The notes under the pieces were generated by a model. That model was not told the origin of the DNA, did no database searches, and worked only from the letters and a program-made list of their open reading frames with translations. From the IMG/VR virus record IMGVR_UViG_3300021181_000006, positions 1-64,000 of that record: a stretch of 64,000 nucleotides of DNA. One strand, given 5' to 3'. Every line of letters begins with the position of its first letter. Within the stretch, counting starts at the first letter, position 1. This DNA comes from a virus. This document shows, in pieces, positions 1,390 through 10,537 of this stretch. The position numbers were made by a program, and so were the translations under genes.

Positions 1390-1543
1390 GTTTCCTATGC
1401 AAGCGGACAACCCGAATGCATAGTAGCCTCTCCATCTGATCCGTGTGGAGTTGTAGCATGCTGCTGAATCCCGTGGTATGATTAGGACTTGCAATCCGTC
1501 ATATTCGGACCTATTCGGCAGAAACGGACACGTTTTCAGGTGA

Positions 1544-1594
1544 CCACTATAGCGCTTCACCACTTGTTTACTCAAGTTCTTGGCGTTATAGTGG
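1544..1594 (+). ncRNA. Long imperfect hairpin just upstream of the tmRNA
   Basis: CCACTATAGCGC (1544-1555) pairs with GCGTTATAGTGG (1583-1594) over 12 bp with one G-U pair. The loop holds an inner stem ACTTG-TTTACT-CAAGT. It ends 15 bases before the tmRNA 5' end. It may be a processing signal for the precursor or an attenuator. The rest of 1390-1543 is non-coding, with small hairpins (CTATGCA/TGCATAG, CTCCA/TGGAG); a tRNA-Cys-like patch near 1484-1500 does not fold as a tRNA. Confidence 0.4.
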
Positions 1595-1609
1595 TTATCG
1601 TTCTTTCAT

Positions 1610-1985
1610 GGGCCTGATTAGCTTCGACGGGAATTGTGAAATAAGAGTGAGCCGTGTCGTAGAGCTTGTGGCTACGTAAAAAACAAGCAAAAAATGTAAA
1701 TGACGATTCCGTCACTTACGCATCTGCCCGTCTCGCTGCCTAACCGCAGCCTGGCTCACAGGTGTCCAATCTGCAACATACGGGTGCTTCTACCGTTGCA
1801 GATCATCAGAAGATCGTCGGCCTAGGAACTGGAAAACCTAGGGACTAAATTCCATCTCGGTCCAGCACAATGGGTACCGTAAACTCGAAATGCTAGGTGA
1901 TCATTCCAAATAATGATATATACACGGTAGAGCACACTATAGATCGATTCTCGGACCTGGGTTGCGAAACCCAGCAGGTCCACCA
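1610..1985 (+). ncRNA. ssrA: Transfer-messenger RNA (tmRNA)
   Basis: tmRNA rescues ribosomes stalled on broken mRNAs and adds a degradation tag. The 5' end GGGCCTGATTAGCTTCGACG matches the family signature, and GGGCCUG (1610-1616) pairs with CAGGUCC (1975-1981), followed by A and an encoded CCA (1983-1985). A T-arm CTGGG/CCCAG is present. Pseudoknot PK1 is visible: CGTAG (1658-1662) with CTACG (1672-1676), and GCTTGT (1664-1669) with ACAAGC (1683-1688). GTGAGCC/GGCTCAC (1647-1653/1753-1759) forms another helix. The tag frame ends at TAA 1741-1743 and reads about VNDDSVTYASARLAA, with the LAA end that ClpXP recognises. The resume codon is probably GTA 1696. Odd points: an 8-nt T-loop (TTGCGAAA) instead of 7, and a short spacer after PK1. 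Confidence 0.93.
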
Positions 1986-2031
1986 TTTGTAATTTCAGTG
2001 GCACGTGTGTACCTACTAGCAATAGTAGGAG

Positions 2032-2162
2032 TTCCTCTGATGAGTCTGCTTAAACTCCAGACGAAACCGATCAGTGAAGACGAGTGTTCTCTTCACATAG
2101 GTGGGCGTACTATTACAGAATTAACACACTCTGTACCTGTAACCTGCCTGATTGGTAAGGAA
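2032..2162 (+). ncRNA. Hammerhead self-cleaving ribozyme (type I, extended stem III)
   Basis: All invariant core positions are present. CTGATGA is at 2037-2043; stem II is GTCTG/CAGAC (2044-2048/2058-2062) with a G-C closing pair; GAA is at 2063-2065. A2066 pairs with U2156 to start stem III, ACCGATCAG/CTGATTGGT (2066-2074/2148-2156; nine pairs, one G-U). The cleavage base is A2157, with the cut expected between 2157 and 2158. Stem I is TTCCT/AGGAA (2032-2036/2158-2162). Stem III carries a 73-nt insert with its own hairpin (GTGAAGA/TCTTCAC). It lies 46 nt downstream of the tmRNA and upstream of a structured RNA, so it may separate the two RNAs after co-transcription. Confidence 0.85.
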
Positions 2163-2510
2163 ATGCTTGGATCAGACATCGGAAGTCGGTGCCAGGCCTA
2201 GACCACGTGCTTACCGTGTGTTCTAGTAGTCTATTGTCAGTCCAACCATAGGGAGCACTAGCGGTGACAGATGATTCCTGTTCGTTGCTGCTCTCAGCCC
2301 TCATAGACGGCAAATAAGTTTTTAATGACCAGAACTGAATGGTCAGAGCGAACTAACGGTAAGACGTATTTTTGAAGGTATTTTGGAGGACCACGGAGCC
2401 ATCCAAAGGCCCTCCTAGAGAGGTAGCCTAACTCTGTGGTGAAGACCACGACTCGGGGTGCAAAGCCAGGGATACCTTCTTTCTTTCAAACCATCAACCA
2501 AAGGAAGACC
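2158..2510 (+). ncRNA. Structured non-coding RNA, 5' part
   Basis: This stretch begins at the predicted hammerhead cut and has no convincing gene, but is dense in hairpins: CTAGA...TCTAG with CACG/CGTG inside (near 2196-2225), TGACCA-8nt-TGGTCA (near 2325-2345), TTTGGA/TCCAAA with GGAGG/CCTCC (near 2380-2415), and GTGGT-GAAG-ACCAC (near 2434-2448). The HNH gene follows. It probably forms one RNA with 2952-3250. Giant phage ncRNAs of the GOLLD/ROOL kind or a group I intron-like element carrying the HNH gene are candidates; no diagnostic motif was confirmed. Confidence 0.45.
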
Positions 2511-2951
2511 ATGTTCAGAAAAGGACTCTACGACATAGAATTCGTTTTTGGTCTTGTGAAAGCTCCAGAAGAGAGAGTATTGGTTGATGGAGATATCATG
2601 AATACCAAATCGTTACGCATGCGTACTTTTGCTTATAAAGGCATTCATTGCGTGAATTGTGAAAGGTATGGCAGGGGTTTCGTTAAAGAGAAACATCACG
2701 CTTCGGATCAGACGTATCATTTTGCCCTCTATCACTGGTATAACGATGATAGAGAGCCTATGATACTGATGACAAAAGATCATATACTACCCATTTCAAA
2801 AGGTGGTCGTGATTTTCTTGGTAACATGCAACCCATGTGTGCGGTGTGTAATTTTACCAAAGCAGGAGATCCTCTTCCTGTTGGTGTGAAGTTCACTCCC
2901 AATGAACTATTTCTTCGTATTCCGCTATCCAGTCCCACTATGACCTCTTAG
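2511..2951 (+). CDS. HNH homing endonuclease, 146 aa
   Basis: A ββα-metal HNH nuclease, probably a homing endonuclease that spreads its own locus. The HNH module is complete: CVNC zinc knuckle, then KDHILPISKGG with the catalytic His, then N of GNMQP, and a second zinc pair CAVC followed by N. The start at ATG 2511 is chosen because AAGGAAG lies directly upstream; a GTG at 2436 in frame falls inside an RNA hairpin and has no ribosome binding site. The gene splits a highly structured RNA region, which suggests it invaded an RNA element or belongs to an intron-like one. Function from motif is confident; the target is unknown. Confidence 0.85.
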   Translation: MFRKGLYDIEFVFGLVKAPEERVLVDGDIMNTKSLRMRTFAYKGIHCVNCERYGRGFVKEKHHASDQTYHFALYHWYNDDREPMILMTKDHILPISKGGRDFLGNMQPMCAVCNFTKAGDPLPVGVKFTPNELFLRIPLSSPTMTS

Positions 2952-3250
2952 GTGAGCTGCGTTCATGCTCTTTGCAGCATGAAGCCAGTAGCGAGATCCT
3001 AAGTGCGTCGGGATGATAGACGTGAAGAATGGATAGACAGACACTCAGGTAAGTCCAAGCGCGCTCTTGCTAAGGGTGAAATGCTGAGCTGAATGGGGTG
3101 CGAGTCGCAATGCCCGACACTGTTCGGGGATAGGAGCACGCGCCATGCAAAGATTCCTGCATCGTTAGCCGGACTTAGAGCCGGCCACTCTGATTGACTT
3201 CAGATATACATGAAGCAATCTATAGAGCAATAATATACACGAAAGAGTCC
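2952..3250 (+). ncRNA. Structured non-coding RNA, 3' part with multi-way junction
   Basis: Follows the HNH stop codon and precedes the terminator. TTCATGCT/AGCATGAA forms an 8-bp hairpin (2962-2983). AAGTCC (3051-3056) pairs with GGACTT (3171-3176) to close a junction. The junction encloses GCGCGCTC with GAG-CA-CGCGC (3059-3066/3134-3143) and ATGCA/TGCAT (3145-3149/3158-3162). Inside the second helix lie CCCGA/TCGGG (3113-3117/3124-3128) and a TGCG-AGT-CGCA stem. A final hairpin GATTG-A-CTTCA/TGAAGCAATC covers 3192-3220. The nesting is far beyond chance for 300 bases. Family unknown. Confidence 0.55.
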
Positions 3251-3287
3251 ATGCAGTATCCTACGAAAGTAGGGTACTGCATTTTTT
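3251..3287 (+). terminator. Strong rho-independent terminator of the RNA locus
   Basis: A 14-bp stem ATGCAGTATCCTAC/GTAGGGTACTGCAT with one G-U pair and a GAAA tetraloop (3265-3268), followed directly by six T (3282-3287). It ends the tmRNA/ribozyme/HNH transcription unit. Confidence 0.9.
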
Positions 3288-3299
3288 AGATACCACACC

Positions 3300-3482
3300 A
3301 TGACTGATAAACATACAGTAACCCTCGAATATCAAGTGCAGCAAGCTCGTCTTGTTAAACAATTACGCGCAGAAAACTCTCGATTACGAAACCGACTGAA
3401 AGAGCTATTAGAATATGAACGACAAAGAGATGCCGAAATCGCAGCCAGCGACACAAGTAGTGACCACATCATGCCCTATTGA
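3300..3482 (+). CDS. Small coiled-coil protein, 60 aa
   Basis: No family is recognised. The sequence is a single charged helix with heptad character (LVKQLRAENSRLRNRLKELL), like a short leucine-zipper or dimerisation segment. The ATG follows the terminator T-run by 12 bases and has no clear ribosome binding site, which weakens the call. The end overlaps the next gene by 68 bases in another frame. Confidence 0.4.
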   Translation: MTDKHTVTLEYQVQQARLVKQLRAENSRLRNRLKELLEYERQRDAEIAASDTSSDHIMPY

Positions 3483-3633
3483 GCATGGTGAGTTTAAGGT
3501 CAGTGTCAGTGAAGCTGAAGCATATTTCGAGAAATATGGCTTATATATGATTAATGGAGGTTTGAAGAAAACCACGCCATCAGAATCGGATCATCAATCT
3601 GATGCAGACGATACGCCTGATATAAGTGTATAA
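3415..3633 (+). CDS. Small acidic protein, 72 aa
   Basis: No family is recognised. ATG 3415 has AAAGAG about 11 bases upstream; ATG 3430 in frame is an alternative start. The middle (FKVSVSEAEAYFEKYGLYMI) looks folded and the tail is acidic and polar (SESDHQSDADD...). The gene overlaps the upstream small gene at its 5' end. Its last 83 bases overlap the convergent end of the minor head gene. Confidence 0.45.
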   Translation: MNDKEMPKSQPATQVVTTSCPIEHGEFKVSVSEAEAYFEKYGLYMINGGLKKTTPSESDHQSDADDTPDISV

Positions 3634-5566
3634 AGTGTTCCGCTGGCGTATCGTGTGACTTTTCTGGATGTATGACACCAGCTTTAGAGAGAGTTTCCAT
3701 TTCATGGAAGCTCTCTCTAAAAATGGGATAGAGTAACTCACCTTCACGGTGCAAAATAACATCTCTAGGATCCTCTTCGTCTTGAGGATCAATAAATAAG
3801 ATATTTTTCTCTACTTTGGATTCCATATTCCCGGGTAATGGAGTAAAAATAATCTTATCAAAGATGGTTTTTTTACCTATGCCTCGTAACCATGGGATAA
3901 ATTCTATAGGAGCATTCTCAAACTTACCGACTGAAACGCTGACTGGCATATCACGGTGTTTAGGCCGATAAGCACCTAATCCAAAGTGTGGTACAAAGGT
4001 TCCACGACAATTACTTGACAGGATACCTTCAGCCCAATACGATGATGTCATCGTATGGAGATCATACACATGCCCAGTATAATCGAATCTTTCGATACCA
4101 ATAATTTTCAACGGGACTATCTCGCCGGAATATCCATCCAACAGCTCGCTAATAATTTTGGAATCGGAAAGACAACTGTTCATCGTAAGCTGAGACAGCT
4201 CGGCCTCAAAAAAAGAGGTCTTATCGACAAAAATTCCGTTATCAGCAGATATATTGCTGGCGAGTCTGCTCTTGAGATAGCTCTGTCCATTCGTGTCAAT
4301 AAAATTACTATTTATAAAATCCTTCGTGAGCATGGTGTCCCAAGACGGTCCACTGCTCATGCTAATACTTTGAGAATGCAGAAGTTGAGCAAGGAAGATC
4401 GCCTTCTGCTCACGAATGCTGCCCACGCCGCCGTCAAAGGACAGTCCAGAACGAAAGAGGAACTTATCCAGAGAGCTAAAACGCGACAGGAGCGAAGTGT
4501 CATTGAATCCAAGGGCGAAAGGATTATGCTCGACTGGCTCAGAGAAGCCGGATTGCATTGTACTCCACAACTCGCTATTGGACCGTATAATATCGATGTC
4601 GCCGTTCATGAAAATGCCATCGCCGTGGAAATCTTTGGAGGAAACTTCCATACGGCTGGCGCTCATGCTGCTTTGTTTCGAGAAAGAACTGATTTTCTCC
4701 TGAATTCTGGTTGGTTGGTTATTATTGTCTGGGATATTAATAGATCTTGTCCATTGTCCAGGGCTGCATCCGATTACATCACTGCCCTCACGAAGATCAC
4801 CCGCTCTCATATACCCATGTGGTGTCAAGAGCATGTGATTAACGGTAACGGACAGCCTTCTTCCATCGGCAAGAATCAACTTAACTACAGGGCCTTTGTA
4901 GGAGGCGACAAATCCTTCGACGATATTATGATCACATCCAGCTGATACAATGGTGTCTGGCAAGACACAGTTTGGGTGTGAATCATGGGTGAGTGGGAAG
5001 GTATAAGACAATAGCTTACGAATATCGTGAATAGTCCCATTAAGAACCCGACAAATTGGACTCGTTCTATCATCATGGACCTCCATACGACGGCAAAGTG
5101 TGAGTCCGTCTTCTAAGAATTCTGACAGGGCTGCTTTCGCATAAATATTCATCGCAGCAGTACGAGCTACAGTGCGGTTATGTCCAAGAACCTGTTTTAC
5201 CGACTGGCCAGTGCGAAGACGGTCTTTAATGTAATCAGATTCTCTAGGACGCGCATTTAACTCCTGGAGCATACCATCGAGATCTTTCTCGTAATCGTAT
5301 GAACCAATACGTAGTTCTGAGGTCTTTATGAGACCTAAGAATCCCTGTGCCCAGTGTCTTCCAGCCATGGCTGCAGCACGCACCAGAGGCAGCACTGAGC
5401 TACGCTTCAACTCCCCGCCTGCCTCAGCAATACCCTTGGAAGCCGCCAGGATCGATTTGATCTCTGCAGGGTGTACTCCACTGGTCAGTGTACGAGTAAG
5501 TGCGTCCACGGGCTTCCTAGAATCCCAGGATCGGAGTCTTGAAGTCTTCGGTATCAGGCGCTTCAC
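3551..5566 (-). CDS. MuF-like minor head protein interrupted by an intein, 671 aa
   Basis: The spliced protein is a head morphogenesis protein of the SPP1 gp7/Mu gpF family, which sits at the portal inside the capsid. Residues 1-199 and 520-671 are the exteins. The family signature DDRTSPICRVLNGT at about 165-178 and the motif HPN-C-RGTFVPHF are rejoined by splicing. The intein (residues 200-519) enters exactly at the conserved Cys of that motif. The start is a GTG at 5566 overlapping the upstream gene by 50 bases, with a weak ribosome binding site. The 3' end converges on the small forward gene. After splicing the product would be about 351 residues, normal for the family. Confidence 0.85.
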   Translation of the reverse strand: MKRLIPKTSRLRSWDSRKPVDALTRTLTSGVHPAEIKSILAASKGIAEAGGELKRSSVLPLVRAAAMAGRHWAQGFLGLIKTSELRIGSYDYEKDLDGMLQELNARPRESDYIKDRLRTGQSVKQVLGHNRTVARTAAMNIYAKAALSEFLEDGLTLCRRMEVHDDRTSPICRVLNGTIHDIRKLLSYTFPLTHDSHPNCVLPDTIVSAGCDHNIVEGFVASYKGPVVKLILADGRRLSVTVNHMLLTPHGYMRAGDLREGSDVIGCSPGQWTRSINIPDNNNQPTRIQEKISSFSKQSSMSASRMEVSSKDFHGDGIFMNGDIDIIRSNSELWSTMQSGFSEPVEHNPFALGFNDTSLLSRFSSLDKFLFRSGLSFDGGVGSIREQKAIFLAQLLHSQSISMSSGPSWDTMLTKDFINSNFIDTNGQSYLKSRLASNISADNGIFVDKTSFFEAELSQLTMNSCLSDSKIISELLDGYSGEIVPLKIIGIERFDYTGHVYDLHTMTSSYWAEGILSSNCRGTFVPHFGLGAYRPKHRDMPVSVSVGKFENAPIEFIPWLRGIGKKTIFDKIIFTPLPGNMESKVEKNILFIDPQDEEDPRDVILHREGELLYPIFRESFHEMETLSKAGVIHPEKSHDTPAEHFIHLYQAYRLHQIDDPILMAWFSSNLH
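4010..4969 (-). other. Intein (320 residues) in the minor head gene
   Basis: A protein-splicing HINT element. It begins with Cys200 (CVLPDTIVSAG, block A), continues with VTVNHMLLTPHGYMRAGDL (block B, with the conserved His), and ends with VYDLHTM...YWAEGILSSN before the +1 Cys520 (blocks F and G). The penultimate residue is Ser rather than the usual His, which is tolerated in some inteins but may slow Asn cyclisation. The roughly 220 residues between the splicing blocks are Ser-rich with no LAGLIDADG or HNH motif. That DNA instead encodes an endonuclease on the opposite strand. Confidence 0.88.
4070..4945 (+). CDS. Vsr/EDxHD-type homing endonuclease antisense within the intein
   Basis: Two N-terminal helix-turn-helix units (SIQQLANNFGIGKTTVHRKL and LEIALSIRVNKITIYKIL) precede a Vsr-like PD-(D/E)XK domain. 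That domain has SKGERIMLDWLREAG, then YNIDVAVHENAIAVEIFGGNFH with the acidic pair and His, then RTDFLLNSGWLVIIVW. This matches the EDxHD homing nucleases related to I-Bth0305I, seen near fractured phage genes. ATG 4070 has GGAG nine bases upstream; an ATG at 4055 in frame is less likely. The gene lies wholly inside the intein DNA, on the other strand, overlapping coding for the splicing blocks at both ends. It probably mobilises the intein by cutting the empty HPNC site. Confidence 0.85.
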   Translation: MPSIIESFDTNNFQRDYLAGISIQQLANNFGIGKTTVHRKLRQLGLKKRGLIDKNSVISRYIAGESALEIALSIRVNKITIYKILREHGVPRRSTAHANTLRMQKLSKEDRLLLTNAAHAAVKGQSRTKEELIQRAKTRQERSVIESKGERIMLDWLREAGLHCTPQLAIGPYNIDVAVHENAIAVEIFGGNFHTAGAHAALFRERTDFLLNSGWLVIIVWDINRSCPLSRAASDYITALTKITRSHIPMWCQEHVINGNGQPSSIGKNQLNYRAFVGGDKSFDDIMITSS

Positions 5567-8283: not shown

Positions 8284-8754
8284 TTACTTCCAGTTGTTAG
8301 TGATGCGTTGTAAGAGATAAACCGATAGCATAGCCAGGACTTCTTCCACTATAAGGGAAGAGATATCCAGCGGTGAGCCCTGTTTGGCTGAAGACGGATG
8401 GGAGGTAACCTTCTGGTGGGTAGAAACTGATACCGACACCGGCTGCCCATTGAGAGGCATAGATTCCTGGCGCAAGAGTGCCATAAGCGACTCGACATGG
8501 GGAATATACAACCCCTGATTGCCAGTGATGAGGATCGGCTTTGGTGTAGGCGGTCCATACACCCCAGTCGTTGGTGGTTTCACCGAGGTAGTGATCGTTG
8601 ACTGTGGAAACTTCGAGTGTTGAGCCCGATAGTGTGTCCGGTGTGGCGTACAGCCGCTCAGAATCAAGACTGCCAAACCACAGAGTATCACCAGATTTCT
8701 TGTCTTTAATAGTAATGGTAGCATCGGTATTTTGACCTTTTTTCCAAGTAGCAT
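8284..8754 (-). CDS. Lipoprotein, o-spanin-like, nested in another frame, 156 aa
   Basis: A signal peptide (TRNLVILCGLAVLILSGC) ends in a canonical lipobox LSGC, so the mature protein would be acylated and anchored in the outer membrane. The mature part is rich in Pro, Ser and Thr (KPPTTGVYGPPTPKP), as in Rz1-type outer-membrane spanins. An in-frame ATG at 8724 is an alternative start with AAAAAAGG upstream. The gene overlaps a second long frame (8297-8848) almost completely, the layout expected of nested spanin genes. It is longer than classical Rz1 proteins, so the assignment is tentative. Confidence 0.6.
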   Translation of the reverse strand: MLLGKKVKIPMLPLLLKTRNLVILCGLAVLILSGCTPHRTHYRAQHSKFPQSTITTSVKPPTTGVYGPPTPKPILITGNQGLYIPHVESLMALLRQESMPLNGQPVSVSVSTHQKVTSHPSSAKQGSPLDISSLIVEEVLAMLSVYLLQRITNNWK

Positions 8755-8911: not shown

Positions 8912-10537
8912 CTAGAGTGATAGCCATCCCAATGACATACTATACAATTTTAGTCGCATAGCCTGTGAATTCACACTGAGCGTAGCTCCACTCACTCCAT
9001 CAATATTAAGCGTACTGGCTATAGTAACATTATTCGTTCCAGCACTGGCAGTAATGTCTTTGATGATAATTTCATCATTAAGAGTCGGGCTTACAGGTAA
9101 TGTAATAGTAAATATTCCACCACTAGAATCAGTCGTTATAATTTGTTTATGAACGGCTGGGCTCGGCAGTGGAGTAGTGCCGGTAGTTGCAGTGGTACGA
9201 TAAAATAAATGGTTATAAGTAATACTGACAATAAACGTATGCGTATCTAATTGATACCCAATAGAATATTCAGCAGGATTTGTAGAGTAATATCCAGCGC
9301 TTACCGCAGAGAAATCATACCAAAACTGAGTCGTAGGCGGTGCGCTGGTATTAATAGGCGATAATCCAGTGGTAGTAATAGCTCCAGAAATGGTTGCCTG
9401 CCCATTTTGAGCATACCCATTAGCTCCAATAGTCGCTTGAGTCTCAGTTGCTACAGCAGGAGTTACTGTTGCTACGTTGGAAGCAATACCAGTGATTCTG
9501 AAGAGTCCTAAGTTTAATGATGTTCCAGAAGTAATGAGGATGGCATCGCCAATAGCTCTACCGAGTAGCGAGTCAGAAGTAATGGACGATGCACCGTTGT
9601 TAAAGATCCAGCCAGATCCAGGTGAAGCAGTTAATGTTACCTGGGTAGATGGCTGACTGACCACTGCTAATGGTATATCAGTGGCTAAAGTAGCCGCTAT
9701 CCAGCATTGATTACTATATAATAATGGCTCTAAATAATACTGAGGTAATACCACAGCGTTATTAACGGTAGTATGAGGAATAGCTCCCAAAGCACTCGTG
9801 GTAATAAAAACATTACTACCACTTGGACTAGCAGCACCAGAAATAGCAGCGGCTTGCGTCGCATTCACTCGTCCATCTAAGACTGATTGTGTGACATAAG
9901 CATTTCCACTACCGGGAGATACCGCTGCATCAAGCGCAGCTTTTTCATTCGCTGTAGGTAACGACGTAATAGGATCTGATCCAGTCGTCTCATGGGTTGC
10001 GTGATGTGGTGTGGTTGGCGACGCCGAAAGGATAAACTTCGAAGTACCTGCATCATATTTAATAACAAACTGGTCAGTAATGCCAGCTGAGTTCACCACA
10101 ACACCGTTAATAGATCCGGCATTTTGCGGATCAGCCAATGTACCACTCAGTCCACCAACATTCAGGACATCAGATCCTGATAATTGGTGAGTGGCAACGT
10201 GAGCTGCAGGTGTACCGCCTGAGGTACCAGTCGCATCAGTAGTAATAACAAAATTCGTACCGTTATACTTTAATATAGCATTAGAAACTAAAGATCCTGT
10301 AATAGCATGAGCTAAAATATGATCTGCATTCTGCGCTGTAGTTAAAATACCAGTTAACCCGGTGAGATCTAATTGATCTGCACCACCATTTTGATGGCGA
10401 GCATGGTGATCTAACAGTAATGCCGTATCAGTGGTATGAGCCGCTTCCAACTGTGTAATAGCATCCTGTACATTATCTGCAGTGATAATGCCAGCATCAG
10501 TGATGAAACGGATGACTTGCGCGAGAGGATTAGACAT
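8912..10537 (-). CDS. Tail fibre protein, 541 aa
   Basis: Structural fibre component. The N-terminal third carries the common fibre motif HHARHQNGGADQLDLTGLTG, repeated in diverged form as HVATHQLSGSDVLNVGGLSG and HHATHETTGSDPI, typical of trimeric tail-fibre shafts. The rest is Ser/Thr/Gly/Ala-rich β sequence ending in a receptor-proximal domain with TNNVTIASTLNIDGVSGATL. No signal peptide. It is the last gene of the fibre cluster before the lysis-like genes and starts two bases after the upstream stop. Receptor specificity cannot be read. Confidence 0.8.
   Translation of the reverse strand: MSNPLAQVIRFITDAGIITADNVQDAITQLEAAHTTDTALLLDHHARHQNGGADQLDLTGLTGILTTAQNADHILAHAITGSLVSNAILKYNGTNFVITTDATGTSGGTPAAHVATHQLSGSDVLNVGGLSGTLADPQNAGSINGVVVNSAGITDQFVIKYDAGTSKFILSASPTTPHHATHETTGSDPITSLPTANEKAALDAAVSPGSGNAYVTQSVLDGRVNATQAAAISGAASPSGSNVFITTSALGAIPHTTVNNAVVLPQYYLEPLLYSNQCWIAATLATDIPLAVVSQPSTQVTLTASPGSGWIFNNGASSITSDSLLGRAIGDAILITSGTSLNLGLFRITGIASNVATVTPAVATETQATIGANGYAQNGQATISGAITTTGLSPINTSAPPTTQFWYDFSAVSAGYYSTNPAEYSIGYQLDTHTFIVSITYNHLFYRTTATTGTTPLPSPAVHKQIITTDSSGGIFTITLPVSPTLNDEIIIKDITASAGTNNVTIASTLNIDGVSGATLSVNSQAMRLKLYSMSLGWLSL

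Follow-up and report, generated by a model that had tools for sequence, protein, structure and literature searches.

Judged from its sequence, the element at positions 2032–2162 is a genuine type I hammerhead ribozyme, far beyond what chance would supply, and it occupies an undescribed position behind a tmRNA gene. The window, i.e. the whole stretch of DNA analysed here, covers the opening 64 kb of a virus record 184,466 bp in length. The ribozyme probably cuts itself between 2157 and 2158 during the synthesis of a transcript that would carry both the tmRNA and an HNH endonuclease gene, and the likeliest effect of the cut would be the processing of this mixed transcript. For the hammerhead in the window, we infer co-transcription, cleavage activity and effect alike.

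All elements of the hammerhead core, namely CUGAUGA and GAAA, the A15.1–U16.1 pair and the NUH triplet before the cut, were identified by the descriptor (Table 1). The core is surrounded by three helices of 5, 5 and 9 pairs (19 in total), and the topology is that of type I, the open stem being stem I (UUCCU/AGGAA) with both ends of the element in it. The preliminary description of this DNA had drawn an invariant core with three stems, a cut between 2157 and 2158, a 73-nt insertion in stem III and a location directly downstream of the tmRNA. The core and stems were recovered at the same coordinates, the descriptor placed the cut in the same register, the insert (2075–2147) is 73 nt long, and the hammerhead lies on the same strand as the tmRNA with 46 nt from the CCA end (1985) to stem I (2032). 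The GGAG at 2028–2031 and the CUC(C) at 2055–2058 of loop II could form either a stem I/loop II contact or a competing hairpin.

Table 1 Features of the tmRNA–hammerhead–HNH locus in the window, and hammerhead–tRNA-Tyr genes in other viral contigs.
Feature	Position	Strand	Basis or remark
Non-coding, strongly foldable stretch upstream of tmRNA	1390–1609	+	MFE −80.9, z −5.8
tmRNA, ends CCACCA, G3–U70 pair	1610–1985	+	RF00023, 101.4 bits, E 1.8e-38
GGAG immediately 5′ of stem I	2028–2031	+	Sequence reading and inference
Type I hammerhead ribozyme	2032–2162	+	19 pairs, perfect core; MFE fold identical
Stem I, UUCCU/AGGAA	2032–2036/2158–2162	+	5 bp
Core CUGAUGA (C3 to A9)	2037–2043	+	G8 = 2042
Stem II, GUCUG/CAGAC	2044–2048/2058–2062	+	5 bp
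Core GAAA (G12, A13, A14, A15.1)	2063–2066	+	A13 = 2064
Stem III, ACCGAUCAG/CUGAUUGGU	2066–2074/2148–2156	+	9 bp
Stem III insert, 73 nt	2075–2147	+	Foldability ordinary, z −0.7
Predicted cleavage A2157 (H17)/A2158, triplet GUA	2157–2158	+	Descriptor
Non-coding leader after the cut, 353 nt	2158–2510	+	No convincing ORF; z −1.6
HNH endonuclease ORF, 146 aa, AGGAAG upstream	2511–2951	+	PF01844, PF14279
Non-coding stretch 3′ of HNH ORF	2952–3250	+	z −3.3
Intrinsic terminator of presumed transcript	3251–3288	+	14-pair stem, T run
Hammerhead–tRNA-Tyr genes	L031 6483–6756; L030 8399–8525; L023 3824–3946; L036 4240–4372; L029 5777–5902		Predicted cut at first base of tRNA

The descriptor comprised the type I core, the stems, the NUH triplet and a stem III insert of up to 250 nt, and its chance baseline was obtained from 30 Markov-simulated genomes of the same size (5.5 Mb), searched on both strands. 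The element in the window scored 19 pairs versus 13 for the best chance match, and it is the single hammerhead found by the descriptor in the whole virus record. A second pattern test gave 0.00 matches expected in shuffles. The unconstrained minimum-energy fold of 2025–2170 is the hammerhead fold. Among 20 type I hammerheads, including that of the window, pairing is kept while the bases vary in all three stems; this count leans towards the fold because the descriptor itself requires pairing, and it supports the fold for the class, not for the individual in the window. The flank just 5′ of stem I is AG or AA in 14 of the 20 and an A follows the hammerhead in 17; the window fits both. A blastn search of the locus against 50,697 phage records returned no relatives, and thus there is no covariation for the individual hammerhead. 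The element shares the core, three stems, open-ended stem I, NUH triplet and a possible stem I/loop II contact with described type I hammerheads (Perreault 2011, PMC3088659; de la Pena 2017, PMC6155905), and differs from them in the 73-nt stem III insert, the tmRNA–HNH setting in a phage and a score below the Rfam gathering threshold.

The tmRNA at 1610–1985 is not called by ARAGORN. Its acceptor and T loop were read from the sequence, and the T loop (region 1959–1978) has 8 nt (UUGCGAAA) rather than 7, which is possibly why ARAGORN misses it. The foldable stretch in front of the tmRNA (1390–1609) ends in a long hairpin right before position 1610 and matches no Rfam family. A terminator scan of the + strand found no terminator-like site from the tmRNA to 3251, and the strong terminator at 3251–3288 is the sole candidate on this strand in the interval 1985–3300. 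As the tmRNA is not followed by a terminator-like site ahead of the HNH gene, the cut would split one co-transcript, and read-through from the tmRNA into the HNH gene is likely. The HNH ORF has a plausible ribosome-binding site, and homologues of its product occur in 44 phage records.

In the proposed mechanism, the tmRNA and the HNH gene would be transcribed together and the hammerhead would cut the transcript between 2157 and 2158 while being made. The upstream product would be a tmRNA precursor carrying a 172-nt trailer with a 2′,3′-cyclic phosphate end, to be trimmed by host nucleases. Since the predicted cut lies 172 nt past the CCA, the mature 3′ end of the tmRNA is not made by the hammerhead. 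The downstream product would be the HNH message with a long leader and a 5′-hydroxyl end, and such a message would be less accessible to decay initiated at a 5′-monophosphate.

The preliminary description had the ribozyme separate the tmRNA transcript from a large structured RNA. The first part, the cutting of a co-transcript, fits the lack of an intervening terminator. The large structured RNA is not demonstrated, because the leader 2158–2510 folds like coding controls (z −1.6, control range −0.5 to −3.8) and shows no gain when folded jointly with the tail after the ORF (−6.4 versus a null of −9.9 kcal/mol, sd 3.6). The leader has no match in Rfam, no tRNA by ARAGORN and no blastn relative, and no recognisable RNA begins at 2158. 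For want of a covariance-model match, 2158–3250 was rejected as a group I or group II intron; the idea that the HNH gene interrupts one large RNA was also rejected, as joint folding gains less than the null.

These properties of the leader bear on an alternative in which a distinct functional non-coding RNA begins at 2158 and owes its 5′ end to the hammerhead; hammerheads in phage tRNA arrays provide a parallel for this. In the first case found, contig L023, a hammerhead located between two tRNAs has its predicted cut at the first base of tRNA-Tyr. A directed pattern, consisting of a hammerhead core and then a tRNA T loop with 31-nt freedom in spacing, matched ten sites in nine viral contigs. 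Nine of the ten sites adopt the type I hammerhead fold with 15–19 pairs; L034, with 13 pairs, was no better than chance and was left out. For L023, L029, L030, L031 (6674), L035 (2361) and L036, the predicted cut coincides exactly with the first base of the tRNA as called. The same holds for L031 (6525), whose tRNA is only partly called and has a 7-bp acceptor that was read by eye. In L032 and L033, the predicted cut is one base upstream of the called tRNA start; for the tRNA-His of L032, the extra base is G, as expected for G−1. Anticodon or resemblance identifies seven of these nine tRNAs as tRNA-Tyr or Tyr-like. The ribozyme and tRNA folds are mutually exclusive because stem I uses the 5′ strand of the tRNA acceptor. 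As a control, the directed pattern was run on 257 Gb of prokaryotic genomes, where it gave three matches, none of which folds as a hammerhead. Cultured phages with a hammerhead–tRNA unit like that of L030 were not found by blastn. The predicted cuts at tRNA starts suggest a function for hammerheads in phages, and together with the prokaryotic control they also count in favour of the mechanism proposed for the window.

In or near tRNA arrays, predicted cuts are also followed by stretches other than tRNAs, namely in L035 (1486), L037 (8300) and L038 (8922), where the non-coding stretches after the cut are 1486–1596, 8300–8746 and 8922–9169, respectively. In L039 (2560), a hammerhead in a non-coding region has its predicted cut before a non-tRNA stretch, and its stem III insert is 71 nt versus 73 nt in the window. 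These four hammerheads are the nearest analogues of the locus in the window. The RNAs downstream of them show no convincing similarity to one another or to the window. The predicted cuts at mature 5′ ends in tRNA arrays, the non-tRNA stretches behind some hammerheads (L035, L037 and L038, the last with z −5.5) and the 353 non-coding nucleotides, long for a leader, argue for a distinct RNA; its ordinary foldability and its lack of an Rfam or tRNA match, of homologues and of likeness to other post-hammerhead RNAs argue against it. On balance, we consider a distinct RNA starting at 2158 doubtful.

The stretch at 8922–9169 of L038 is a highly foldable RNA of 248 nt that lies between the hammerhead cut and a tRNA-Asn in a phage tRNA array. 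In a 347-kb phage with three hammerheads, two of them at tRNA-Tyr, a region (L163, 1443–1801) matches the permuted two-piece tmRNA model RF04321 (81.6 bits, gathering 47), and the beta_tmRNA model matches there too. The same jumbo phage has a type I hammerhead of 20 pairs (L142, about 1496–1557) that starts a few bases from an apparent stop codon and is followed by an apparently non-coding stretch.

Another alternative is that the hammerhead is part of a mobile HNH unit (about 2032–3288) inserted behind the tmRNA, in which it would serve as the 5′-end maker of the endonuclease message. The HNH ORF begins 353 nt after the cut and has its own terminator, in keeping with such a unit, and hammerheads in front of genes occur in other viruses. 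A pattern for the stem II type of the window matched five viral contigs; L004 and L005 carry clean type I hammerheads shortly upstream of start codons, and that of L002, at a contig end and complete except for the 5′ strand, is also near a start codon. Short type I hammerheads in L019, L022 and L025 are likewise close before start codons; these and the three preceding contigs favour the mobile unit. Lariat-capping (GIR1) ribozymes are located upstream of homing endonuclease genes in twin-ribozyme introns and make the 5′ end of the message. The likeness to a mobile unit in the window would lie in a ribozyme making the 5′ end of an endonuclease message, whereas the fold and chemistry differ and there is no intron at the locus.

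No close relatives were found via three proteins of the window; with a terminase profile, 55 distant ones were recovered. A core-pattern search (CTGATGAG-N8..24-CGAAAC) in 50 terminase-related records, two cultured phages included, found the pattern in none of them. Three of the 50 contain a plausible tmRNA (two above the family cut-off), and no type I hammerhead is present in the loci around these three; the tmRNA–hammerhead cassette is therefore not conserved in the lineage as sampled. In the 3.3 kb surrounding the tmRNA of Bacillus phage G, no type I hammerhead is present. The absence of a hammerhead behind the tmRNAs of relatives counts for a mobile unit and the absence of a second copy in the genome counts against it, and we regard such a unit as unlikely.

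The lack of conservation among relatives would also fit a decayed or inactive hammerhead, as would the predicted probability of stem I, which in longer transcripts (about 200 nt or more) is low (0.05–0.18) owing to competing pairings; both points, like the absence of blastn relatives of the locus, also count against the proposed mechanism. A candidate competitor, by inspection, is the pairing of GGAGUU (2028–2033) with AACUCC (2053–2058). However, this low probability weighs little against activity because most of the comparison viral hammerheads behave alike in the same calculation, in which core and tertiary energies are outside the model. Decay, moreover, would not preserve all core bases and 19 pairs, all of which are intact, and an inactive ribozyme is accordingly improbable.

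Rfam gave no hammerhead match at the gathering threshold, and the stem III insert is probably the reason why it misses the type I hammerhead. The sub-threshold match to Hammerhead_3 (2020–2072, 17.6 bits, E 2.3, gathering 48.5) would make the motif a type III hammerhead, which we rejected as highly improbable since the score is below gathering, stem III would contain several mismatches among its seven pairs and the loop of stem I would comprise about two bases, whereas the type I reading gives 19 unbroken pairs.

Hammerheads are known in intergenic regions of phages and prophages with no role given (PMC3088659, PMC6155905), and what they do in prokaryotes and their phages has been described as an open question (PMC6155905). 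The hammerheads described here are intergenic too, and those in tRNA arrays add an exact positional logic. The theta ribozymes of gut phages are HDV-like, cut at tRNA 3′ ends, adjoin phage stable RNAs and were proposed to process them (PMC10879173); the text of that paper mentions neither tmRNA nor hammerheads. Theta ribozymes and the element in the window are both self-cleaving RNAs beside phage stable RNAs, but the latter has a hammerhead fold and a predicted cut at a distance of 172 nt from the end of the tmRNA, and the hammerheads of tRNA arrays differ from theta ribozymes in their predicted cuts at tRNA 5′ rather than 3′ ends. The preliminary description knew of no tmRNA–hammerhead–ncRNA cassette, and the non-subscription literature we searched likewise yielded no tmRNA–hammerhead cassette; no paper in it describes hammerheads adjoining a tmRNA or located at the 5′ ends of tRNAs.

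As in the tRNA arrays, the hammerhead in the window sits among stable RNA genes. It may be part of a wider phage system for making stable-RNA ends, although nothing recognisable begins at its predicted cut. A tentative extension, possible but not favoured, is an RNase P-independent hammerhead route to stable-RNA 5′ ends in phage tRNA/tmRNA clusters, of which the window would be the tmRNA-linked, large-insert form releasing an undescribed RNA from 2158. If this were true, phage stable RNAs would be processed by built-in ribozymes, tRNAs would have 5′-hydroxyl ends made without RNase P, and the phage take-over of RNA would be read differently, with a counterpart to the theta ribozymes of tRNA 3′ ends. 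With a hammerhead behind a tmRNA and others predicted to cut at or within one base of tRNA starts, the role of phage hammerheads becomes directly testable.

Elsewhere in the window, the head-protein gene at 3551–5566 (− strand) contains an intein-like stretch (residues 218–517, about 4016–4915). Almost exactly antisense to this stretch lies a 296-aa ORF (4055–4945, + strand) with an HTH_7 domain and a REase_MTES_1575-like nuclease domain.
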